From contig JAPOVS010000052.1 of NCBI GenBank assembly GCA_026708055.1, positions 1 through 64,000 on the forward strand: a DNA stretch of 64,000 bases, given 5' to 3'. This stretch comes from a bacterium. Its GTDB lineage: Bacteria > Actinomycetota > Acidimicrobiia > Acidimicrobiales > CATQHL01. The position numbers and the translations under genes were made by a program. Below are positions 16,267 to 27,315 of this stretch, piece after piece. How positions within the stretch are numbered: the stretch's first letter is position 1; every line of letters starts with the position of its first letter. The notes below the pieces were generated by a model that was not told where the DNA came from, searched no databases, and saw only the letters and a list, made by a program, of their open reading frames with translations.

Positions 16267-17559
16267 TCATCTGTCGGCGCGGCGTTTGCGACCGCGCTCC
16301 CACCACTCGCTCAGGCGCCGCCGGGCCTCGTCGCCATCCAGAGGTCCGCCGGCAATCCGCAGCTCCTCCAGATGGCGCAGTGCGGCGCCGACATCGGGGC
16401 CCGCGTCGATTCCCAGATGCGCCATGACCTCCGATCCGCTGAGCGGTTGGAGCGCCGACAATTCCCCGCGGGACCACAGCTGCTCCCAGCGCTCCACGAA
16501 CGCCGCAACTCCCGCATCGTCCGGCGCCGCCGCCGTGGCGAGTTGCGCTGCCGGCGCGGAGACGTCGCCAGCCTCCGCGGCCCAGCGCCGGACCGGGGCG
16601 TCGCCGGAGGGGGCCGAAGCAGCGTCGAGCAGCGACCGGGCCGCGGTTGCGATGCGCCCGGCGCGGCGGGCCACTGCCCCGGGAAAGCGCAGCCGGCCGG
16701 CGCTGGCCCCGACATCGGGCACCGCCCAGAGCAACGCAGCCAGCCGCAGCGACTCCTCCGGCGCCACCAGGTCCAGGAGTGCCACACCGGCTGCGGCGTC
16801 CGGCTCCGCGGCGGCCAACTCCGGGATGATCTCGACCAGCACGCCCGTCCGCGCCAGCAGGTCGGCCCCGGCGCCGGGAGACTCGGCGACCAGCAGCAGC
16901 GAGAGTTCCCGCGCGCAACGCTCTGCCGACACGATCGCCAGACGGCCGCGGAGTCGACGCATGGCGGCCTCGAGATCCGGCTCGGCGGTCAAGCCCAGCG
17001 TGGCCACGAAACGGCCCGCGCGGAGGATCCGCAGCGGGTCCTCGCTGAAGGAGAGCTCGGCCGAGCGGGGCGTGCGCAGGCGGCCCCGCTCCAGATCCTC
17101 CCGGCCGCCGAACGGATCGATCAACTCGGTGGTCGTCGCCGCCGCCGCGCTGGCGGGCACCTCGAACGCCATGGCGCCGATGGTGAAGTCGCGCCGTGTC
17201 AAATCGGCCAGCAGGTCGCCGCCGTAGGTCACTTCGGGTCGTCGCGAGTCCTCCACGTAGACCTCGGCGCGGTGTGTGGTGATCTCGACGGTCCGCTGCC
17301 CGCGCCGGCAGCCCACCGTGCCGAACTGCTCGCCCTGGGTCCAGACGGTGTCGGCCCAGCCACCCAGGATGCGCCGGACCGTCTCCGGGCGGGCGTCGGT
17401 GGTCATGTCCACCTCGTCCCGGGGACCCAGCGGCGTACCGCCCAGGAGGCTCCGGACCGCTCCGCCCACCACGTACAGCCGCCACGCACCGGCGGCGGCG
17501 AACTGCCGGCCCCAGGGAACCAGCACGGCCGCGGCGGCGCGGATCGTGGCCAGGGTCAT
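16267..17559 (-). CDS. CCA tRNA nucleotidyltransferase / poly(A) polymerase
   Basis: This 430-residue class II nucleotidyltransferase corresponds to the mycobacterial pcnA position. It adds CCA to tRNA 3' ends or A-tails to RNA. Visible are GGAVR of the head domain, REEDPL-like SFSEDPLRILRAGRF of the neck and RRDFTIGAMAFE. Two residues are unusual: the canonical GGxVRD is GGAVRS, and the catalytic D-x-D is E-V-D (RDEVDMTTDA). The HD domain found in some homologues is not evident. ATG 17559 gives the normal N-terminus; the longer open frame upstream lies within the neighbouring gene. tRNA-Gly in this window lacks an encoded CCA, so a working CCA enzyme is needed in the cell. Confidence 0.85.
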   Translation of the reverse strand: MTLATIRAAAAVLVPWGRQFAAAGAWRLYVVGGAVRSLLGGTPLGPRDEVDMTTDARPETVRRILGGWADTVWTQGEQFGTVGCRRGQRTVEITTHRAEVYVEDSRRPEVTYGGDLLADLTRRDFTIGAMAFEVPASAAAATTTELIDPFGGREDLERGRLRTPRSAELSFSEDPLRILRAGRFVATLGLTAEPDLEAAMRRLRGRLAIVSAERCARELSLLLVAESPGAGADLLARTGVLVEIIPELAAAEPDAAAGVALLDLVAPEESLRLAALLWAVPDVGASAGRLRFPGAVARRAGRIATAARSLLDAASAPSGDAPVRRWAAEAGDVSAPAAQLATAAAPDDAGVAAFVERWEQLWSRGELSALQPLSGSEVMAHLGIDAGPDVGAALRHLEELRIAGGPLDGDEARRRLSEWWERGRKRRADR

Positions 17560-17588
17560 CGTCGTCTCACCGGGCGCGGCCCGGCCAC

Positions 17589-18593
17589 TCAGCGATCCAG
17601 GTGCAGCCGGGCGGCAGCGTCCACGACAACACCCCCCGGCCCGCCCGCGGTGACGGGCTCCGGCCGGTACGACACGCCGGCAAGCGCGGCCACGCAGGCG
17701 GCTGCGCTCGCCCCCAGCGCCGCCAGGTCGTACCCGCCTTCCAGAAAGGCCACGACGCGGCCCGCCGGCGCCACGGCCCGCACGGCGGCCGTCAGGTCGG
17801 CGAAGTCGCCGGCGCTCAGACCCAGCATGGTCAGCGGATCGGCCCGGTGGGCGTCGAAGCCCGCTGAGAGCAGCACCCACGTGGGCGCGAACCGCTCGAC
17901 GACCGGTGAGATGACCTCGTCGAAGGCGCGCCGGAAGACGTCGCCGGTGGCCCCCGGCGGCAGCGGAACGTTGAGTGTCGTGCCGAGCCCGGCTCCCGCG
18001 CCAATCTCGTCGACGGCGCCCGTGCCCGGGTAAGCCGGGAACTGATGCAGCGAGACGTACAGCACATCGGGGGACTCGTAGAAGATGTCCTGCGTGCCGT
18101 TCCCGTGGTGGGCGTCGTAGTCCACGATCAGGACGCGCTCGCCCTCCGAAACCAGCCGCGCCGCGGCGATGGCCACATTGTTGAACAGGCAAAATCCCAT
18201 CGACCGGAACGGCGTGGCGTGATGACCGGGCGGCCGCACGGCACAGAAGGCGGCCTCGCCGCGCCCGGCCGCCAGTTCCGCCACGGCGGTGAGGCCGGCG
18301 CCCGCCGCCAGCCGGGCCGCCACAACCGACCCGCCGCTGAGCACAGTGTCGGGATCGAGGGCTCCGCCGCCACCGGCAGCCAGGGCCGTGGCGCGGGCTG
18401 CGACGTCGGCGCCATGCACCATCCGCAGGTCTGCAGCAGTGGCCTCGCCGGGCGCGCATTCCACGATGGCGTCGCCGAGTCCCGCAGCGAGCACGCCCTG
18501 GTGCACTGCGTCGACGCGCCGGGGACGCTCCGGATGTCCCCTGCCGGGATCGTGGTCGAGGCAGCGCTCGTCGGCGAGGAACAGAACCGTCAC
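17589..18593 (-). CDS. histone deacetylase-like amidohydrolase
   Basis: This 334-residue zinc hydrolase of the arginase/deacetylase fold cleaves acetyl-amide bonds in proteins, polyamines or small molecules (AcuC and acetylpolyamine amidohydrolase are relatives). Key blocks are RPPGHHA, the zinc-site segment DYDAHHGNGTQDIFY, SAGFDAHRADPLT and EGGYDL, so the catalytic His pair and metal ligands appear intact. GTG 18593 was chosen because the fold begins at VLFLADERCLDHDPG; an in-frame ATG at 18647 is possible, but neither has a clear ribosome site. The gene lies 29 nt upstream of the CCA/poly(A) polymerase on the same strand, suggesting an operon. Confidence 0.85.
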   Translation of the reverse strand: MTVLFLADERCLDHDPGRGHPERPRRVDAVHQGVLAAGLGDAIVECAPGEATAADLRMVHGADVAARATALAAGGGGALDPDTVLSGGSVVAARLAAGAGLTAVAELAAGRGEAAFCAVRPPGHHATPFRSMGFCLFNNVAIAAARLVSEGERVLIVDYDAHHGNGTQDIFYESPDVLYVSLHQFPAYPGTGAVDEIGAGAGLGTTLNVPLPPGATGDVFRRAFDEVISPVVERFAPTWVLLSAGFDAHRADPLTMLGLSAGDFADLTAAVRAVAPAGRVVAFLEGGYDLAALGASAAACVAALAGVSYRPEPVTAGGPGGVVVDAAARLHLDR

Positions 18594-18697
18594 CGCAGCG
18601 AGCCTAACCCAGCGCCCTTCCGGGACATTCGTGACTGTGGCGCACATTAGGGTGAAGCCCGGAGAACCCACGAGCCCCCCACCGAGGAGAATCCGCC

Positions 18698-19546
18698 ATG
18701 AGCAGCATCCGCATCGTCACCGACAGCGCCAGCGACCTGACCGACGAGCTGATCGAGCAGTGGGGGATCAGCGTCATATCGCTGATCGTCACATTCGGTG
18801 AGGAGCCCCTGGTCGACCGGGCGGAGTTGAAGCCGCAGGACTTCTACGCACGCATGAGCGCCGCCGAGGAGTTGCCCACAACCGCAGCGCCGTCTCCGGG
18901 GCATTTCGAGGAGGCGTTCAGAGCACTCGCCGCCGACGGCGCCAGCGGGATCGTCTGCGTCAACCTCTCCTACGAGCTCTCGGCCACCGGACCGGCCGCT
19001 GTCACGGCCGCCGAGTCCGTGTCCGATCTGGTCGACGTTCGCTGCGTTGACTCGCGCTCGCTGACGAGCGGGCTGGGTTCGATCGTCCTCGAGGCTGCGG
19101 CCGCCGCCGAGGACGGCAAGTCGCTCGACGACATCGAGGCCCTCTGCGCCGACATGGCCGAGCGCACCCGCATGTTCGGCGCCATCGACACCATGGAGAA
19201 CCTTCGCAAGGGCGGCCGTGTGGGCGGCGCCAAGGCGATGGTTGGTTCGATGCTGTCGATCAAGCCCATCGTGGACGTGAGCAGCGGGCGTGTCGAGGAG
19301 GCCGCCAGGACCCGCACCCGGCGCCGTTCCTTCGCCTGGCTGCGTGACCGGATCCTCGCCGACGAACCGGTCACCCACCTCTGCGTCGGGCATGGCGCCG
19401 CCGAGGACATGGACGACTTCCTGGCACTGCTCGGCGAGTCGATCGATCTCGAACGTGTGCGCACCGGCTGGATCGGCCCGGTCATCGGCACCCACGCGGG
19501 CCAGGGAGTGATCGGCGTCACATACGTCGTCGGCGGCGACGACTGA
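18698..19546 (+). CDS. DegV family fatty-acid-binding protein
   Basis: The 282-residue protein has the DegV fold. The signature IRIVTDSASDLT starts it, PTTAAPSPGHFEEAF forms the lipid-binding edge, and a late block reads ENLRKGGRVGGAKAMVGSMLSIKPI. DegV/FakB proteins bind a fatty acid, and FakB members present it to the kinase FakA for phosphorylation. No fakA is in the window. It ends five bases before the pseudokinase GTG, so the two are almost certainly co-transcribed. In mycobacteria the corresponding place holds the MurJ part of MviN. Confidence 0.88.
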   Translation: MSSIRIVTDSASDLTDELIEQWGISVISLIVTFGEEPLVDRAELKPQDFYARMSAAEELPTTAAPSPGHFEEAFRALAADGASGIVCVNLSYELSATGPAAVTAAESVSDLVDVRCVDSRSLTSGLGSIVLEAAAAAEDGKSLDDIEALCADMAERTRMFGAIDTMENLRKGGRVGGAKAMVGSMLSIKPIVDVSSGRVEEAARTRTRRRSFAWLRDRILADEPVTHLCVGHGAAEDMDDFLALLGESIDLERVRTGWIGPVIGTHAGQGVIGVTYVVGGDD

Positions 19547-19551
19547 CGCCG

Positions 19552-21147
19552 GTGACCGCATCCGCCGGAGGCAGCAGCGAGCGACCGCCCGGCGAAGCCG
19601 CGGCCGGGCAGATCCTCAAGGGGCGCTACCGACTTCTGCGCTCGCTGGCCGCCAGTCCTCGAACCGAACTCTGGACGGCGCGCGACGAGGTTCTGGACCG
19701 GACGGTGCTGGTGAAGCTCCTGCACCTCGCGCCGGGCGATGCGGCGGTCCGGGAACGATTCCGCAGCGAGGCCCTTGCTGTGGCGCGGCTCGCCCACCCG
19801 GGCATCGTGGCGATCTACGACACGCTCCTCGAGCCCGATGTCACAGGTCTCGTCCTCGAGCACGTCGAAGCCATGCCCCTCAGCCGGTTCCTCCACGAGG
19901 GCGGTTCGGTGTCGGTGGGCGAGGCCCTGAGCATCGCCCTGCAGCTGGCCGACGCTCTCGCCGTGGCGCACGATCGGGGGGTCCGCCACTGCAACCTGTC
20001 GCCCGACAGTGTCTGGCTCTGCGGCGACCAGCGCATCAAGACCACAGACTTCGGAACCGCCTGGACCCTGGGCGACGTGTCGGCCGGCGACCTGCCTGCC
20101 TCCGCCTGGGCGCAGGAGCAGGCCGACATCCGCGCCCTCGTCGGCGTGCTGCGGGACTGCCTGAGCTCCAGTGGCGACCCCGTCGACCCCGTCGACCTGC
20201 CGGAGGACTTGGCGGCCTTCATCGCCACCGCAGAGTCCCCCCCGCCCAGGAGCCGGTTCGGCTCGATCGCCGAGGCGCGATCCTTCCTGGCGTCGGCGCG
20301 CGGCGTATCCCCGCTGCCGGAGCTTCCCCGCATCGACCTCCCGGCGAGCACTCCCGACCTGCCCTTGCCGGATCCCGAGCCGATCACCCGGCCGCGCCGA
20401 TTCCCCCGTGCCCCGGCGGTCGCGCTCGTTGCCGCCGCGGTGGCGGCGGCGGTCGTCGTCCCGGCACTCACCGGTGACGATTCACCTGCCCCGGATCCCC
20501 CGCTGCCGGTGCCCCCGGTCGTCACGACCCAAGCGCCGGAGGATCCGGCCGGCGGCGAGCAACCCCCGCCGGCGGCCGCCGTACCCGACGAGAACGGCGA
20601 CGCCGAAGTCGAGGACCCCGTCGAAGGCGACGTCGAAAGCACCGGCGACGGATCACCGGCTCCGGAGGCGGATGGATCGCTGCCGCCCGGCGACGCCGGT
20701 GTGGCGATCGTGGACGTGCGGACCGTCACCTTCCGCCCGCCTGCAACCGGCGCGGACGATCCCGACGCCCTCCGGACCCTCGACGGCGATCCCTCCACGC
20801 ACTGGGCCACGCCGGGTCTCAGCGCCGGGGACAGCACCGTCGCCGGCGTCGGGCTGGAATTCCACCTCGCCGAGCGGACCGCCGTGTCAGAGTTGGCGGT
20901 CACCTCCGACACGACCGGCTGGGAGGCGGCGGTCTTCGTCGGCGAGGGCGGCCACGAGCGATTGAGCGACTGGGGCCCGCTCGTCGACCAGCAGGTCAAC
21001 ACCACCGGTCACGTGGTCCTCGGCCTGGCCGACCAGCAAGCAGCCGCGGTCCTGCTGTGGATCCCCGACCCCCGGGCGGCGTTGACCGACGAGATCCGCA
21101 TCGCCGAGGTGATCATCTCGGCGGCACCCGACCCCGCAGTACGCTGA
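19552..21147 (+). CDS. MviN-type pseudokinase with extracellular discoidin-like domain
   Basis: This 531-residue protein has a kinase-like domain (about 24-245), a single helix (about 288-309), a Pro/acidic linker, and an ectodomain (about 385-530) with TLDGDPSTHWATPG and VGLEFHLAERTAVSELAVTS. The kinase fold is inactive by sequence: the glycine loop is lost and HRDLKPxN reads HCNLSPDS (around 146-153), although TDFGTA and a VLVK lysine remain. The order pseudokinase-helix-ectodomain matches the C-terminal half of mycobacterial MviN (Rv3910), where phosphorylation recruits FhaA to control the MurJ flippase. Here the MurJ half is absent. It starts with GTG, followed downstream by a sigma/anti-sigma pair as in Mycobacterium. 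Confidence 0.8.
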   Translation: MTASAGGSSERPPGEAAAGQILKGRYRLLRSLAASPRTELWTARDEVLDRTVLVKLLHLAPGDAAVRERFRSEALAVARLAHPGIVAIYDTLLEPDVTGLVLEHVEAMPLSRFLHEGGSVSVGEALSIALQLADALAVAHDRGVRHCNLSPDSVWLCGDQRIKTTDFGTAWTLGDVSAGDLPASAWAQEQADIRALVGVLRDCLSSSGDPVDPVDLPEDLAAFIATAESPPPRSRFGSIAEARSFLASARGVSPLPELPRIDLPASTPDLPLPDPEPITRPRRFPRAPAVALVAAAVAAAVVVPALTGDDSPAPDPPLPVPPVVTTQAPEDPAGGEQPPPAAAVPDENGDAEVEDPVEGDVESTGDGSPAPEADGSLPPGDAGVAIVDVRTVTFRPPATGADDPDALRTLDGDPSTHWATPGLSAGDSTVAGVGLEFHLAERTAVSELAVTSDTTGWEAAVFVGEGGHERLSDWGPLVDQQVNTTGHVVLGLADQQAAAVLLWIPDPRAALTDEIRIAEVIISAAPDPAVR

Positions 21148-21193
21148 GTCGATCGGTCGCCAGTTCCGTGAGGACCTAGGTCGCAACCCCGCC

Positions 21194-21805
21194 GTGACGC
21201 GCCGTCAGCGCCCGGCACCGGCGAGCCAGCAGCGGAGGCAACTCTCCGACGCCGACCTTGCGAGGGCGGCCGCGAGAGACGACCGGGACGCCATGGAACT
21301 CCTGCTGCGCCGTCACTATCCCCGTGTCTACGCCGTCTGCCGCCGGCTCGCCGGCAACGACGCCGACGCCGCCGACGCCGCGCAGGAGGCGCTCATCGCG
21401 ATCAGCCGCGGCCTGAAGAGATTCGACGGCCGCTCCAGCTTCACGACCTGGAGCTACCGCGTCGCCACCAACGCCTGCCTGGACGAGTTGCGGCGCCGGC
21501 AGCGGCGCCACGCCGGGCCCCTGCCCGAGCACCTCACCGGCGGGCGCCGCGATCCCGTCGGAGAGAGAATCAGCACGCGCCTCGACCTCGACGCGGCGCT
21601 GGGGGCGCTTGCCGAGGAGTTCCGCGTACCGGTGGTACTGCGGGACCAGGCGGGACTCAGCTACGACGAGATCTCCGAAGTGCTCGGAATCCCGCCCGGC
21701 ACCGTGCGATCGCGCATTGCCCGCGGGCGGGCGCGACTCGTCGAGAGGCTCGGCGAGGGGAACCAGATGCCCGCCGGGGAACGTCAGAAGAGCGACGAGC
21801 CATGA
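21194..21805 (+). CDS. ECF sigma factor, SigM-like
   Basis: This 203-residue protein has region 2 (ELLLRRHYPRVYAVCRRLAGNDADAADAAQEALIAISRGLKRFDGRSSFTTWSYRVATNACLDELRRR) and region 4 with its helix-turn-helix (LSYDEISEVLGIPPGTVRSRIARGRARL). The start is GTG 21194. Its stop overlaps the downstream gene (ATGA), the classic arrangement of an ECF sigma factor with its anti-sigma factor. The position before trxB and trxA matches mycobacterial sigM. Target promoters are unknown. Confidence 0.92.
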   Translation: MTRRQRPAPASQQRRQLSDADLARAAARDDRDAMELLLRRHYPRVYAVCRRLAGNDADAADAAQEALIAISRGLKRFDGRSSFTTWSYRVATNACLDELRRRQRRHAGPLPEHLTGGRRDPVGERISTRLDLDAALGALAEEFRVPVVLRDQAGLSYDEISEVLGIPPGTVRSRIARGRARLVERLGEGNQMPAGERQKSDEP

Positions 21806-22839
21806 ACGACCACCGCCTTCCCCCCGACGAACTGGCCTCCGCCTTCCTCGACGACGAGCTCGGCACCGAGGAGGCCACCGCTGTCCGGCGGCATCCCCGC
21901 CTGGCGGCGCGCGCCCGCGCGCTGCGCCGCGCCGCCGAGGCCGTCGGCGAGGACGTGGCGCCGCCGACGGGCGCCGCGGACGTCGCCGTGGAGGCCGCCA
22001 TGGCGGACTTCGACGCCCGTCGCCGGGCGGCGGCGGATCTCGCACAACGGCGTCCCCGCGGCCTCTCGGTCATCGCCGGTGTAGCGGCCGCCGTGGCCAT
22101 CGGCTTCATCGTGGCCGCCGCGGTGGGATTATTCGCCGAGCAGGAGGCGGACCACGCCGCCGCCCCCGCGCCGGAACCGGCGCCCCCCGCCGAGCCTGCG
22201 CCGCCGGCCGGCGAGGCAGCGATGGCACCGACCCCGAGCGCGGCGCAACTGGCCGCAGCGCCGCCGCCGCCCGCGGCCGCCCCGCTGCCTCTCCTCGAGC
22301 CGGCGCCCGCCGCCGACGAACCTGGCGCCGCGCCGGCGGCGGCGCAGGCCGACGCGGAAGCGGCGCTAGCCGAGGCAGAGGAAGCGTCCGCGGCCCAGGC
22401 CGAGGCGGCGGTCGCTCAGCCGGCGCCCGCGCCGGAACCCGCGCCTCCGGCGGACGACGAGATGGAGGCCTTGGACGACGCCGGTCCCGCGGCTGCAGTC
22501 CTCGCGGATCCGTCGCCGGGGGAGGCCTGCGCCGGCGCCATCGGTGCCAGAACCGTCGAACTCCGGCTCACCGTCGGCGGCACACCCATCCTCATCCTCG
22601 GAGCCTCCGACGAGTCGCTCACCGGTCTTGACGGCACCACCTGCGCCGAGATCCCACCACCCGACGGCACGGAGTTGGTCGCCGACGAGGCGCCGGACGG
22701 CTGCGCCGCGGCCATCGGGGACGGCACCGTCGAACTCCGGGTGATCTTCGGCGGCACGCGGATCCTGGTGATCCGGACCGCCGACGGATCGCTCAACGCG
22801 CTCGACGGCACCAGCTGCGGGGGGATCCCGGCCGGGTAA
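21802..22839 (+). CDS. transmembrane anti-sigma factor-like protein with duplicated C-terminal module
   Basis: The 345-residue protein starts with a short cytosolic anti-sigma-like helical region (LPPDELASAFLDDELGTEEATAVRRH), followed by one membrane helix (about 87-111) and a very long Ala/Pro/Glu-rich extracytoplasmic stretch. It ends in two copies of a module of about 45 residues, each with two cysteines and the pattern CxxAIGxxTVELRxxxGGTxILxI. It overlaps the sigma gene by four bases. The HxxxCxxC zinc motif of many anti-sigma factors is missing, so it would belong to the non-zinc class. The C-terminal modules may sense an external signal; that is an inference. Confidence 0.75.
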   Translation: MNDHRLPPDELASAFLDDELGTEEATAVRRHPRLAARARALRRAAEAVGEDVAPPTGAADVAVEAAMADFDARRRAAADLAQRRPRGLSVIAGVAAAVAIGFIVAAAVGLFAEQEADHAAAPAPEPAPPAEPAPPAGEAAMAPTPSAAQLAAAPPPPAAAPLPLLEPAPAADEPGAAPAAAQADAEAALAEAEEASAAQAEAAVAQPAPAPEPAPPADDEMEALDDAGPAAAVLADPSPGEACAGAIGARTVELRLTVGGTPILILGASDESLTGLDGTTCAEIPPPDGTELVADEAPDGCAAAIGDGTVELRVIFGGTRILVIRTADGSLNALDGTSCGGIPAG

Positions 22840-23212: not shown

Positions 23213-24180
23213 CCTCCTCGCCCCGCGAGGTCGTCATCGTCGGCTCGGGCCCCGCGGGACTGACCGCCGCCATCTACTGCGCCCGCGCCAACCTGGCGCC
23301 CCTGGTCTTCGAGGGCGAGCCGTCCTCCACCGGCGACCAGCCCGGCGGGCAACTCATGATCACAACCGACGTGGAGAACTACCCGGGCTTCCCCGACGGG
23401 ATCATGGGCCCCGACCTGATGGCGGCGTTCCGCGCCCAGGCCGCCCGGTTCGGGGCCGAGTTCCGGACCGAGAGGATCAGCCGCGTGGACTTCTCCCAGC
23501 AACCCCTCCGACTCTGGGTCGGTGACGACGCCGCTCCCGGCGCGCTGGCTCGGACCGTGATCGTCTCCACAGGCGCGCAGTCCCTGATGCTGGGGCTCGA
23601 GGCCGAGGAACGCCTCATCGGGCGCGGCCTCTCCACATGCGCCACCTGCGACGGGTTCTTCTTCGGTGGCCGGGAGATCGCTGTCGTGGGCGGCGGCGAC
23701 TCCGCCATGGAGGAAGCGCTCTTCCTCACCAAGTTCGCCACCAAGGTCACCGTGATCCACCGGCGCGACCAGCTGCGGGCCTCCAAGATCATGCAGGAAC
23801 GCGCCTTCGCCTCCGACCGCATCGAGTTCCTGTGGAACCACGTCGTCACCGACATCCTGGGCGACGAGACGCTGGAGGGAGTCCGCGTCCGGCACACCGG
23901 CAACGGCGACGAGCACACGCTGCCGCTCGCCGGGCTGTTCATCGCCATCGGGCACCGGCCGAACACCGATCTCTTCCGGGGCTCGCTTGCCATGAAGCCC
24001 AACGGCTACCTGATCACCGAACCGGGCTCCACCAGCACAAACGTTCCCGGGGTGTTCGCCTGCGGCGACGTGCAGGACGATGTCTACCGCCAGGCGGTGA
24101 CAGCCGCCGGCAGCGGTTGCATGGCCGCCATCGACGCCGAGCGCTGGCTCGAGGCGCAACACGACGCCGGGCACCGCTAG
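23209..24180 (+). CDS. trxB: thioredoxin-disulfide reductase
   Basis: This FAD/NADPH enzyme of 323 residues reduces thioredoxin. It shows the FAD motif VIVGSGPAGLTAAIYCARA, the redox-active CATCDG (near residue 144), the NADPH motif VVGGGDSAMEEALFL followed by HRR, and the second FAD motif GVFACGDVQD. Start GTG 23209 overlaps the preceding stop and places the FAD motif at the expected distance; longer in-frame extension upstream lies inside the previous gene. It forms a thioredoxin system with trxA downstream. Confidence 0.96.
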   Translation: MTSSPREVVIVGSGPAGLTAAIYCARANLAPLVFEGEPSSTGDQPGGQLMITTDVENYPGFPDGIMGPDLMAAFRAQAARFGAEFRTERISRVDFSQQPLRLWVGDDAAPGALARTVIVSTGAQSLMLGLEAEERLIGRGLSTCATCDGFFFGGREIAVVGGGDSAMEEALFLTKFATKVTVIHRRDQLRASKIMQERAFASDRIEFLWNHVVTDILGDETLEGVRVRHTGNGDEHTLPLAGLFIAIGHRPNTDLFRGSLAMKPNGYLITEPGSTSTNVPGVFACGDVQDDVYRQAVTAAGSGCMAAIDAERWLEAQHDAGHR

Positions 24181-24278: not shown

Positions 24279-24602
24279 ATGGCAGCCATCACGACACTCT
24301 CCTCAGCAAGCTTCGACGAGGCCGTCGGCGCGGCGACGAAGCCGGTGCTCGTGGACTTCTGGGCTGAATGGTGCGGCCCGTGCAAGATGATCGCGCCGAT
24401 CCTCGACGAGCTGGCCGGCGAGCACGGCGAGAGCATCACGTTCGCCAAGCTCAACGTGGACGAGGCGCCGGACGTGGCGCGGCGCCACGGCGTGATGAGC
24501 ATTCCCACGCTCATCGTCTTCAACGGCGGTGAAGCCAGCACGCGCATCGTCGGCGCCAAGAGCAAGGCGGCGCTCCTGGAGGACCTTGCGGAGTACCTGT
24601 AG
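24279..24602 (+). CDS. trxA: thioredoxin
   Basis: This 107-residue protein has the active-site WCGPC (C32 and C35) in VLVDFWAEWCGPCKMIAPILDELA, and the cis-proline loop MSIPTLIVF. It reduces protein disulfides and is recharged by TrxB. ATG 24279 follows a GGAGG. Its TAG stop (24600-24602) is in the same reading frame as the following CwlM-like gene, and no other stop lies between. Confidence 0.96.
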   Translation: MAAITTLSSASFDEAVGAATKPVLVDFWAEWCGPCKMIAPILDELAGEHGESITFAKLNVDEAPDVARRHGVMSIPTLIVFNGGEASTRIVGAKSKAALLEDLAEYL

Positions 24603-24647: not shown

Positions 24648-25607
24648 ATAGCCGAGGAGGCGCTGCCTCTCCGAATCGGTGCCCGAGGGGCGACCGTACG
24701 CGACCTGCATCGCAAGCTGGCCGCGGCCGGAGAGTTCGAGATCGCCGCGACGGAGGAGTACACGGCTGCCACCGCCGAGGCGGTCAAGCGCTTCCAGCAG
24801 AGCCGCGGGTTGCCGGCCGACGGGGTATGCGGTGCCGGCACCTGGGCCGCACTGGTCGAGGCCGGGCATCGTCTCGGGGATCGGCTGCTGTACCTCCGCA
24901 CGCCCTACCAGCGCGGCGACGACGTGGCCGACCTCCAACGGCGTCTGGGAGCTCTGGGCTTCTCCGCGGGTCGGGTCGACGGGATCCTGGGTCCCGACAC
25001 CGCCGCCGCCATCGGCGCTCTGCAGGAGAACGCCGGACTCACCGCCGACGGGATCTGCGGTCCCGACACCGTCGCGGTCCTGGACCGGATTCCCGCCGGT
25101 GACAGCCACAGCATGCAGATGCTGCTCGAGCGGGAACGACTGCGCAGCAGGCCGCGGCTGCTGCGCGCCGCTCCGATCGCGCTCGCCGGCGCTGATTCGC
25201 TCGTCGTGGCCGCGGCGCGAGTGCTGCGCCGCCGGGGAGCCAGCGTGCTCGTCCTGGCACAACGCGAGGGCTCAGAGGTGGCGGCGGCGGCGAACGAACT
25301 CGACACCTCGGTGCTCCTCGACGTCCAACTGGCGGACGGGCCCGGCTGCGCGACGTTCTACTTCGAGACCGCCGGCTTCACCTCCAGCGGTGGCAAGCGC
25401 CTAGCGGAGATGTTGGCCGCCGCGTTGGGCGGCGTGCTGGACGTGCCGGGAACGGCCGCCGGGATGCGCCTCCCGCTCCTGCGCGAGAGCCGGATGCCGG
25501 CGGTGGCCTGCCAACTCGGATCGCCGGCGGTCGTGGTCGAGCAGCAGGCAGCCCTTGCCGAACAGATCGCGCAGTGCCTGGCCGACTGGATCGCGGCACC
25601 GCTCTGA
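24648..25607 (+). CDS. CwlM-like peptidoglycan-binding pseudo-amidase, apparent ATA start
   Basis: About 319 residues: two peptidoglycan-binding domains (roughly 8-65, with VRDLHRKLAAAGEF; and 85-145, with VADLQRRLGALGFSAGRVDGILGPDT), then an amidase_3-like domain to the end. The domain order and the position between trxA and parB match mycobacterial CwlM, a PknB substrate that activates MurA. The zinc ligands of true amidases are not visible: the expected DPGHGG and SIHNN positions read ALAGADSL and LDVQLADG. No ATG, GTG or TTG precedes the first domain in frame; GGAGGGAG at 24633-24640 points to ATA at 24648. A 13-codon ATG frame (24610-24651) overlaps that site. Confidence 0.75.
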   Translation: MAEEALPLRIGARGATVRDLHRKLAAAGEFEIAATEEYTAATAEAVKRFQQSRGLPADGVCGAGTWAALVEAGHRLGDRLLYLRTPYQRGDDVADLQRRLGALGFSAGRVDGILGPDTAAAIGALQENAGLTADGICGPDTVAVLDRIPAGDSHSMQMLLERERLRSRPRLLRAAPIALAGADSLVVAAARVLRRRGASVLVLAQREGSEVAAAANELDTSVLLDVQLADGPGCATFYFETAGFTSSGGKRLAEMLAAALGGVLDVPGTAAGMRLPLLRESRMPAVACQLGSPAVVVEQQAALAEQIAQCLADWIAAPL

Positions 25608-25658: not shown

Positions 25659-26552
25659 TCAGCGCGTTACCAAGTGGTAGATGCGTTCGAGATCGTCCAG
25701 ATCAGCGAACTCCACCGTCAGACGACCCTTGCGCTCACCGATCTCCACGCGCACCACCGTCGAGAGGAACTCCGCCAGCAAGTTCTCGAGTTCCAACAAT
25801 GCCGACTCGCTGACTGCGCTGCCGTCGCTCTGCTCGTCGGATTCCGGTGCCCGCTTCGCAGACCCGTCGGCGGCGGCAATCTGCCCGGTTCCCAGAGGTG
25901 ACCGCAGATGGTCCTCCAACTGGCGCACCGACCAACCTTCACGAACGATCTGGCGCGCCAGGCCCACCTGCTCGGCGGAATCGGCGATGCCCACGAGTGC
26001 CCGGCCGTGGCCGGCCGAGAGACGGCGGGAGGCAATGAGTTCCTGTACCTCGCCGGGCAGTTGCAGGAGACGGGTCGTGTTGGTAACCGCCGCCCGGCTG
26101 CGGCCCACCCGGTTCGCCACCGCCTGCTGGGTGAGTCCGAAGTCCTGCTGCAGCTGAAGGAACGCGGCGGCTTCCTCCAACGGGTTCAGATCCTCCCGGT
26201 GGAGGTTCTCGACAAGCGCCTCCTCGAGCGACTCCTGGTCCTCAACCGACCGGACAAGCGCCGGGATCGTCTGTAGGCCGGCACGCTTGGCTGCCCGCCA
26301 GCGCCGCTCACCGGCGATCAACTCGAAGCGGTCTGTCTCAACCTGTCTCACCAGAATCGGCTGCAGCAGGCCGATCCGCCCGATCGAATCGGCGAGCGCG
26401 TCGAGCGGTTCGTCATCGAAGTGGGCCCGCGGCTGGTTCGTATTGGGCACGATGCTGGAGACCGCAATCTCGCGATAGCCGCCCGCGACGCGGCCGCCGG
26501 TCGGTATGAGAGCGCCCAGGCCGCGCCCCAGGCCGCGTTCACCGTGCGCCAT
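25659..26552 (-). CDS. parB: chromosome partitioning protein ParB
   Basis: This 297-residue protein is a CTPase clamp that loads at parS and spreads along DNA. It shows the N-terminal GLGRGLGALIP used for ParA contact, the CTP-binding motifs VPNTNQPRAHFD and GERRWRAAKRAG with ENLHREDLNPLEEA, the helix-turn-helix around GLTQQAVANRVGRSRAAVTNTTRLLQL, and a C-terminal dimerisation segment (LEDLERIYHLV-like). The gene overlaps parA by 14 bases. A perfect parS lies at 27383-27398. Confidence 0.97.
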   Translation of the reverse strand: MAHGERGLGRGLGALIPTGGRVAGGYREIAVSSIVPNTNQPRAHFDDEPLDALADSIGRIGLLQPILVRQVETDRFELIAGERRWRAAKRAGLQTIPALVRSVEDQESLEEALVENLHREDLNPLEEAAAFLQLQQDFGLTQQAVANRVGRSRAAVTNTTRLLQLPGEVQELIASRRLSAGHGRALVGIADSAEQVGLARQIVREGWSVRQLEDHLRSPLGTGQIAAADGSAKRAPESDEQSDGSAVSESALLELENLLAEFLSTVVRVEIGERKGRLTVEFADLDDLERIYHLVTR

Positions 26553-27315
26553 TGGCCTCGAACTCCTTGGCCAGAATGCGATACGTCAGCGCAGCCCGCG
26601 AACGCGGCGAGAATACCGTAATGGGCAGGCCCCGCGCCGGAGCTTCCGCAAGGCGCACCGACCTCGGGATCACGGTGTGGCAGACGCGTTCGTCGTAGAG
26701 GCTGCGTACCTCCTGGGAGACCTGCCGGGACAGGTTCGTCCTGCTGTCGTACATGACGAGCAGCAACCTGGACACGCTCAGCTCAGGATTCAGATGCCGG
26801 CGAATCTGGTCCACGTGTATCGTCAGCTGCGCGAGCCCCTCGAGGGCGAAGTACTCGCATTGGATCGGTACGAGAACCTCGCGCACCGCCGTCAGCGCGT
26901 TCACCGCCAGTAACCCGAGAGCCGGCGGGCAGTCCACGAAGAGGTAGTCGAACTGCCCGATGACGGGCCCCAGCGCCGCAGCAAGACGCCGCTCCCGGTT
27001 GAAAGCCGACTGCAATTCGATCTCGGCGCCTGCCAGATCCAGGTGCGATGGGACAGCCATCAGGCCCTCGACAGGCGTCGAGACGATGCACTCGACCATC
27101 GACTTTCCATCCAGCAGGACGTCGTAGACCGAGACCGTGAGGTCCCGGGGATCGAGGCCGATGCCTGTGGTGGCGTTCGCCTGGGGATCCATGTCCACCA
27201 CCAGCACACGACGCCCCAACTCGGCAAGAGCAGCAGCGAGGTTGATCGCCGTCGTGGTCTTCCCGACGCCGCCCTTCTGGTTGGCGACGGCGATCGTGCG
27301 GCATTCAGACGTCAC
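26539..27315 (-). CDS. parA: chromosome partitioning ATPase ParA
   Basis: This 258-residue Walker-type ATPase moves origin regions with ParB. It has the deviant Walker A KGGVGKTT with the signature lysine (VANQKGGVGKTTTAINLAAAL), Walker A' VLVVDMDPQANATTG and DYLFVDCPPALG. The start is GTG 27315. It lacks the long N-terminal DNA-binding domain of plasmid ParA type Ia, as expected for a chromosomal Soj. Confidence 0.97.
   Translation of the reverse strand: MTSECRTIAVANQKGGVGKTTTAINLAAALAELGRRVLVVDMDPQANATTGIGLDPRDLTVSVYDVLLDGKSMVECIVSTPVEGLMAVPSHLDLAGAEIELQSAFNRERRLAAALGPVIGQFDYLFVDCPPALGLLAVNALTAVREVLVPIQCEYFALEGLAQLTIHVDQIRRHLNPELSVSRLLLVMYDSRTNLSRQVSQEVRSLYDERVCHTVIPRSVRLAEAPARGLPITVFSPRSRAALTYRILAKEFEANGAR

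Follow-up and report, generated by a model that had tools for sequence, protein, structure and literature searches.

In Mycobacterium tuberculosis, the protein MviN combines the flippase MurJ, a pseudokinase, a membrane helix and an ectodomain in one polypeptide. The stretch of DNA considered here, a window of 64,000 nucleotides from a bacterium of the order Acidimicrobiales (class Acidimicrobiia, phylum Actinomycetota; assembly GCA_026708055.1, contig JAPOVS010000052.1, positions 1 to 64,000, forward strand), contains a pseudokinase, helix and ectodomain in a gene of their own (19552..21147, + strand), which follows a gene of the DegV family. A first-pass annotation described this arrangement as an MviN module detached from MurJ. 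The question that the locus raises is where such a separate module comes from and what it could work with. The reading that we favour, with about even confidence, is that the protein is the form taken in the window's family (f1, nine genomes that are 75-96% complete) by a receptor Ser/Thr kinase of a cell wall locus, that it was inactivated independently of MviN, and that it acts as a ligand-sensing scaffold of wall synthesis.

A separate gene for a degenerate receptor-type kinase

The two open reading frames (ORFs) that the annotation placed at 18698-21147 are confirmed by ORF and Pfam analysis: degV (18698..19546, +; 282 amino acids (aa)) and, after a gap of five bases, the separate pseudokinase gene, which encodes 531 aa between a GTG start at 19552 and a stop at 21147. 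The degenerate kinase domain covers approximately residues 18-250 (19603..20301, +) and is recognised by its motifs and, as a kinase fold, by structure comparison; the Pfam Pkinase match (E 1.4e-14) is confined to residues 49-173. Its glycine-rich loop (G-loop) is replaced by ASPRTELW and HRDxKxxN by HCNLSPDS, in which the HRD Asp has become Asn and the catalytic-loop Lys and Asn are lost; the activation segment is largely deleted, and there are large deletions in the C-lobe as well. The protein has lost a motif essential for catalysis, which is the general mark of a pseudokinase. It retains the beta3 Lys (in VLVK), the alphaC Glu and DFG, and Lys55, Glu73 and Asp166-Phe-Gly are invariant among six aligned f1 sequences. 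In the structure comparison, which used a low-confidence full-length model, residues 14-264 align to kinases with Z of 14-16 and a root-mean-square deviation (rmsd) of about 6-9. The closest solved structures by sequence, among the matches listed, are StkP, PknA and then PknB; the MviN pseudokinase is neither among the 50 structure-comparison matches listed nor among the 60 sequence matches listed.

The hydrophobic helix at about residues 287-306 (20410..20469, +; residues 290-302 in the model) is predicted from the sequence to be the single membrane helix. It is preceded by arginines and followed by a linker rich in Pro, Glu and Asp and then by the C-terminal domain; because the arginine-rich flank is N-terminal of the helix, the kinase side is predicted, on the basis of charge, to be cytoplasmic. 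The ectodomain, approximately residues 379-531 (20686..21144, +), was defined by alignment, an AlphaFold2 (AF2) model and Foldseek. The model, built from six sequences, has a predicted template-modelling score (pTM) of 0.70, and Foldseek returned 34 chains at E-values of 5.4e-5 to 8.6e-4, with CBM32, APC10/Doc1, SUN, fucosidase and fucose-binding lectin structures among them, at TM-scores of about 0.4-0.55 and with rmsd values that are in most cases large (about 9-11). The domain is likely a galactose-binding jelly roll of the discoidin/CBM32-like type, an assignment that applies to the fold class and not to its detail.

A profile of 17 Acidimicrobiia ectodomains, including that of the window, matches seven MurJ-fused proteins of family f110 (E 4e-25 to 3e-20), and the pseudokinase of one fused protein, L164, matches the M. 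tuberculosis MviN chains 3OUN, 3UQC and 3OTV (E 1e-132 to 1e-133). Judged by the profile, the window ectodomain is homologous to the mycobacterial MviN ectodomain. The homology of the two modules that the annotation proposed is thus upheld, and the unrelated ectodomain that it had named as the contrary outcome was not found.

The gene is present in seven of the nine f1 genomes, the copy in G277 being split over two contigs; in the other two, which are incomplete, it was not found and only other kinases were seen. Homologues are 57-82% identical in five other genomes of the genus and 36% identical in the sister genus. When matched to named records, six of seven loci are metagenome-assembled genomes labelled Acidimicrobiia, Acidimicrobiales or 'bacterium' (33-93% identity), and the seventh is 32% identical along the kinase part only. 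In the seven f1 copies, HRD has become H[CGQ]N, the glycine loop is gone and no activation segment can be recognised; all seven are open (one is cut by contig ends). Ratios of nonsynonymous to synonymous substitution (dN/dS), calculated by the Nei-Gojobori method between the window and four genomes of the genus, are 0.21-0.40 for the kinase domain, 0.50-0.75 for the linker, 0.27-0.47 for the ectodomain and 0.14-0.18 for degV; against the sister genus, the kinase domain gives 0.47 at a dS of 1.4, and the synonymous sites of the ectodomain are saturated. By these ratios, both the dead kinase domain and the ectodomain are under purifying selection in f1, and pseudogene decay was rejected on this basis.

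Intact, dead and fused kinases at the wall locus

In its consensus form, the locus consists of cca, hdac, a DUF6049-like gene and murJ (where these two are present), degV, the kinase gene, sigM, an anti-sigma gene, trxB, trxA, cwlM, parB and parA. This order was obtained from an initial set of 19 kinase regions (one of them, L052, is without the locus) and was then extended with further relatives. MviN of M. tuberculosis is Rv3910, and 'DUF6049-like' is the label used here for a protein of about 700 aa that occupies the place of Rv3909 in the mycobacterial gene order.

Ectodomain matches were found in 172 of 396 genomes of the phylum and in 109 of 218 of the class, and kinase matches in 141 of 148 of the class. 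Loci were picked for holding a kinase or an ectodomain, and genomes with no match were left aside; the 104 loci compared below are a hand-picked spread over family codes and not a random sample. Dropped before counting were L047 (a kinase with no detectable ectodomain), L104 (a partial contig of G277), L227 and 19 genes outside the locus (17 intact-looking, two not), and L105, the other half of the G277 copy, was left out of the second survey. Note that the absence of murJ refers to the stretch fetched (about 6-20 kb), which in some cases ends at a contig edge.

The gene is separate in 97 of the 104 loci and fused to MurJ in seven. In the class (46 loci), 22 kinases look intact, 10 with murJ and 12 without, and 24 are dead, with murJ seen beside none of them. 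In the other classes (58 loci), 30 look intact (20 with murJ), 21 are dead and separate (20 with murJ), and seven are dead and fused. All 13 loci that belong to the window's order but not to f1 have an intact-looking kinase, in which HRDxKPxN, DFG and the activation segment are present. Similarly, the 18 class relatives with a detectable ectodomain in the first set (L052 being off the locus) all carry the full set of motifs, that is, the glycine-rich loop, beta3 Lys, alphaC Glu, HRDxKPxN, DFG and an activation segment resembling GT-Y-L-PEQ. A second dead clade of the class, with 18 loci in families f17, f20, f23, f26, f28 and f31, has Arg for the Lys, mostly HGxID for HRDxK (HGD in L244), and GFG or AFG. 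In the fused genes, LSIDHP stands at the HRD position in six of the seven (L161 is gapped), and Thr at the beta3 position in all seven, which agrees with the entry for M. tuberculosis MviN in Table 1 of PMC12599244.

The history of these states was examined on a locus tree made from TrxB, CCA and CwlM (LG+G4, short search), which contains 98 of the 104 rows; the other six had too little sequence. On this tree, the number of changes between active and dead is seven if Lys, HRD Asp and DFG Asp are all required, eight if only the HRD Asp is required (L244, with HGD, then being active), and six if a kinase-model score below 200 defines the dead state; starred branches force at least six. The change between fused and separate occurs once. 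The clade adjoining the fused clade comprises six rows, all dead and separate, and f1 is nested inside active rows under branches of 96* and 100*. On a second tree, made with a mixture model from 78 of 84 rows, the corresponding figures are 8, 8 and 6 active/dead changes and one fusion, with seven changes forced by starred branches. We read the changes as losses, because regain of the set of motifs is implausible and the lesions differ between dead clades. From the trees we infer that the separate kinase came first, that in the MviN line death preceded fusion, and that the f1 kinase died in a separate event. The MurJ fusion looks derived, the separate gene being the common form among the loci examined.

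This history modifies what the annotation had proposed. Its option of an ancestral separate form fits the survey of split and fused relatives that it had called for, together with the single fusion on the tree. The idea of a 'detached' module was rejected on the tree and the comparison of motifs, the separate gene being the common form, nor does the f1 protein appear to be an inherited MviN pseudokinase, since its kinase looks to have been inactivated independently inside a clade of intact-looking kinases. In the open-licence literature searched, we met no account of inactivation recurring in this way or of death coming before fusion.

Several side observations concern the same kinases. Those of L220-L223 (f123), L155, L211 and L212 (f100) are apparently half-way to death: they retain Lys and Glu, have DFA or DFS, and carry HGD, HGN, HRN or HGS in the catalytic loop, varying between close relatives. 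In the class, the DUF6049-like gene was seen at all 22 loci with an intact kinase and at none of the 24 with a dead one (L034-L051, L233-L235, L239-L258 and f1); in other classes, dead kinases co-occur with this gene, so that there is no general rule. Seventeen intact-looking kinases with the same ectodomain lie off the wall locus (L052, L152, L156-L158, L162, L168, L170, L171, L179, L180, L182, L183, L186, L204, L216 and L232). Finally, L227 (G533:C21) is an ectodomain ORF that has no readable in-frame kinase, through a broken frame, an assembly error or domain loss.

Candidate partners and rival explanations

In MviN, a Thr in the tail of the pseudokinase is phosphorylated by PknB and docks FhaA. 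FhaA_N was found in none of the nine f1 genomes; it was found in all four members of the order tested, each of which has an intact locus kinase. Among the six f1 sequences, no invariant Ser or Thr occurs between residues 247 and 306; elsewhere, Ser238 is invariant. Given the lack of both FhaA_N and an invariant Ser/Thr in this interval, the MviN mechanism should not be carried over to f1, for which we rejected the FhaA route. There may be a phosphorylation site elsewhere in the protein, for example at Ser238, or another FHA protein in f1.

A PASTA kinase is encoded in the window's genome. In G035, genes named by resemblance as fhaA-like, FHA-like, pstP, rodA, pbpA and pknB are clustered. In the corresponding stretches of the window's genome and G258 (20 kb and 16 kb), the pknB and pstP homologues adjoin, and no ORF in those two stretches matched the fhaA-, rodA- or pbpA-like genes. 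The fha-pstP-rodA-pbpA-pknB cluster looks reduced in f1 (L269, G000:C27:64001-84000; L271; L270).

The annotation had advised locating murJ elsewhere in the genome, and one such gene was found on another contig (G000:C84:1404-2534), with none at this locus; a genome devoid of murJ, which would have told against the proposed link, is not the case here. Misassembly was rejected as the cause of the missing neighbour: hdac and degV are just 26 bases apart (18672-18697) inside one contig, and they are adjacent in six other f1 genomes (G193, G278, G276, G274, G277 and G258). Exactly one murJ is present in seven of the nine f1 genomes, and none was found in the other two, which are 75 and 88% complete. 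A MurJ tree of 98 of 101 rows (94 different; three omitted as repeats) has two deep groups, one of 20 rows that includes the four f1 MurJs tested (G000:C84, listed as L001/L033, and L106, L107 and L108) and one of 78 rows that includes the usual locus MurJ of Acidimicrobiia. The four form one clade, whose nearest relative is L068 (family f79, same order), and f1 MurJ is about 24-30% identical to the usual locus MurJ of the class. In f111, f118 and f125, the MurJ found at the sigM locus belongs to the f1 group, as does that of L071 (f47, same order) at a DUF6049-murJ-degV locus; G110, G083, G035 and G023, members of the order with no murJ at the locus, have the usual type elsewhere. On this tree, f1 uses a distant type of MurJ, acquired through transfer or kept as an old paralogue, and within Actinomycetota one type seems to stand in for the other.

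These data bear directly on the possibility that the protein is an MviN-like regulator acting in trans, which would bind the MurJ encoded elsewhere in the genome and control its flippase activity. The locus is shared with the MurJ fusion and with separate murJ genes, MurJ is present in the genome, and MurJs of the f1 group lie beside intact-looking kinases of this family in f111, f118 and f125, so that one interface could serve. However, murJ was not seen at 36 of the 46 class kinase loci, 12 of which have an intact-looking kinase, and f1 MurJ has a low identity to the usual type; we regard this explanation as unlikely. The annotation further named DegV as the upstream partner and suggested that the state of fatty acids may be coupled to wall synthesis. 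The protein is FakB-like (Pfam DegV E 1.8e-75; NCBIfam DegV above the cut-off), and a sensor in which it would signal the supply of lipid to the pseudokinase, through binding of a fatty acid or a polyprenyl lipid, would fit the short distance between the genes, the Dak2-domain protein (the domain of FakA) encoded elsewhere in the genome, and the occurrence of degV in 29 of 46 class loci, where it stands between murJ and the kinase gene if murJ is present. It is in fact a frequent neighbour in the class and accompanies murJ in all 10 class loci that have it, which does not suit a substitute for MurJ. Moreover, no degV was seen at 14 of the 24 class loci with a dead kinase, at 3 of the 22 with an intact one and at 55 of the 58 loci from other classes, and the FakB1 model of NCBIfam scores 155.9 bits against a cut-off of 350. 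We consider the lipid sensor improbable, and DegV may be a co-regulated lipid-handling protein.

Two further explanations concern the kinase domain itself. An atypical active kinase would bind ATP through the beta3 Lys and DFG and transfer phosphate without the HRD Asp, and the invariance of Lys55, Glu73 and Asp166-Phe-Gly in f1 speaks for it; with the glycine loop, HRD Asp, catalytic-loop Lys and Asn, and activation segment all gone or changed, we hold it to be slightly less probable still than the lipid sensor. A decaying gene, in which the kinase loses function before deletion, is suggested by the size of the deletions that affect the activation segment and the C-lobe and by the two incomplete genomes in which the gene was not found. 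This idea is largely refuted by the seven open copies, the purifying selection on both the dead domain and the ectodomain, and conservation across two genera, and we give it hardly any weight.

We return to the receptor reading, according to which the gene is the f1 form of the receptor-type Ser/Thr kinase at the murJ-sigM-cwlM-parAB wall locus of Actinomycetota. The ectodomain would bind a wall glycan or precursor outside the cell, and the state of the ligand would be relayed across the membrane. On the inside, the dead kinase fold would receive it and serve as a scaffold or as an allosteric, perhaps nucleotide-gated, partner. The protein that it acts on would most plausibly be the PASTA kinase of the genome, with peptidoglycan synthesis being adjusted as a result. 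The gene is probably co-expressed with degV and sigM, and its product would use neither the MviN phospho-Thr/FhaA route nor a covalent tie to MurJ.

A broader proposal, which we make tentatively and with less than even confidence, is that the conserved job of the wall-locus receptor kinase is not catalysis. It would have been switched off at least six separate times with ectodomain, helix and locus kept, and one dead line would have been fused to MurJ to give MviN. As f1 keeps the dead receptor with FhaA and the usual MurJ neighbour gone, the common partner would be something else, for example PknB or a wall-linked ligand.

Several points weigh against the receptor reading. The absence of FhaA_N and murJ in f1 was recorded in draft genomes, and the first class set was chosen by similarity to the window kinase and may favour some forms. 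The 98-row tree is based on three locus genes and a short search, many of its rows are less than half filled, and there are composition warnings on five f1 rows; the mixture-model tree has long-branch warnings for L210 and L167. Parsimony gives no direction between loss and gain, so that loss is assumed. The retained beta3 Lys, alphaC Glu and DFG make ATP binding or weak activity possible, and the full-length model is poor (mean predicted local distance difference test score 56.7, pTM 0.38). The reading as a whole is drawn from sequence and models, with ligand and partner both putative. A rival of a more general kind is that the whole wall-growth system of f1 is reduced and that the receptor was kept by chance.

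Neighbouring genes and known systems

Upstream of degV in the window, hdac (17589..18671, -; Pfam Hist_deacetyl 6.1e-85), of the histone deacetylase family, is transcribed divergently, and it is followed in the same direction by a cca/pcnA-like gene (16267..17559, -), named by resemblance from its synteny with homologues in relatives; a Pfam scan of 16267-17560, read one base out of frame, gave no match. At the site of the short gap between hdac and degV, other loci of the class have an interval of a few kb that contains the DUF6049-like gene and, at some of them, murJ as well. Downstream, a gap of 46 bases separates the pseudokinase gene from a sigM-like gene for an extracytoplasmic function (ECF) sigma factor (21194..21805, +; Pfam Sigma70_r2 4.8e-22; syntenic among relatives), whose stop overlaps the start of an anti-sigma-like ORF (21802..22839, +), assigned by position, with a weak zf-HC2 match below the cut-off. 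Then come trxB (23224..24180, +; start uncertain) and trxA (24279..24602, +), both named by resemblance to syntenic homologues, a cwlM-like gene (24684..25607, +; start uncertain), assigned by Pfam and synteny, and, on the opposite strand, parB (25659..26552, -) and parA (26539..27315, -), named by resemblance from ORF and synteny. For the cwlM-like ORF (24810-25604), Pfam gives peptidoglycan-binding domains only, and the amidase half looks degenerate or unrecognised. An Rfam scan of 18000-22000 found no RNA families.

The main value of these results lies in the inactivation, which recurs, and in the loss of FhaA by f1. A receptor kinase spread through the phylum seems to have died in place repeatedly, with the MviN pseudokinase as one of the results. 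Related families in which this locus holds an intact kinase in one case and a dead kinase in another offer natural before-and-after pairs for a non-catalytic role of pseudokinases. Family f1 is a lineage to which the FhaA explanation should not apply, which is also a warning that the partner of the module is not to be inferred from MviN alone.

Compared with MviN, the window protein shares the locus, the order of pseudokinase, helix and ectodomain, and the homologous ectodomain; the deletion of the activation loop is also common to both, as described for MviN in PMC12599244. The differences are considerable. MurJ belongs to the same polypeptide in MviN and not in the window protein, whose ORF starts at 19552 with murJ on contig C84. 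MviN has VALT, Lsidhpsr and no DFG according to Table 1 of PMC12599244; in the window protein, the beta3 Lys, the Glu and DFG are all still in place. Between residues 247 and 306, the f1 proteins have no invariant Ser or Thr that would correspond to the phosphorylated Thr docking FhaA, FhaA_N was not found in the family, and the f1 kinase apparently died separately from that of MviN.

For the pseudokinase family ActPs3, PMC12599244 describes VAIK, HRD and DFG as completely degraded, with bulky aromatic residues that fill the ATP pocket and with residues for an N-lobe dimer; the window protein shares the activation-loop deletion and has lost HRD, but keeps the Lys of VLVK and DFG. The ActPs3 members other than MviN are said there to be without its carbohydrate-binding domain, unlike the separate homologues examined here, which carry an ectodomain homologous to that of MviN. 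In PMC10166564, the extended pseudokinase is stated to appear only in organisms with arabinogalactan, and the legend of S6 Fig mentions a 'protein kinase family protein' gene often located downstream of an unextended mviN; the structures 3UQC and 3OUN are assigned to MviN in both papers. The kinase-ectodomain proteins at the locus in other Actinomycetota have the same position and are similar along both kinase and ectodomain, with motifs that are intact in 22 of the 46 genes from the class and in 30 of the 58 from other classes, and degenerate in the window. Finally, kinases of the PknB/StkP/PknA type share with the window protein the layout of kinase, helix and ectodomain; the PknB type has PASTA repeats on the outside, whereas the window protein joins a dead kinase to a jelly-roll ectodomain.

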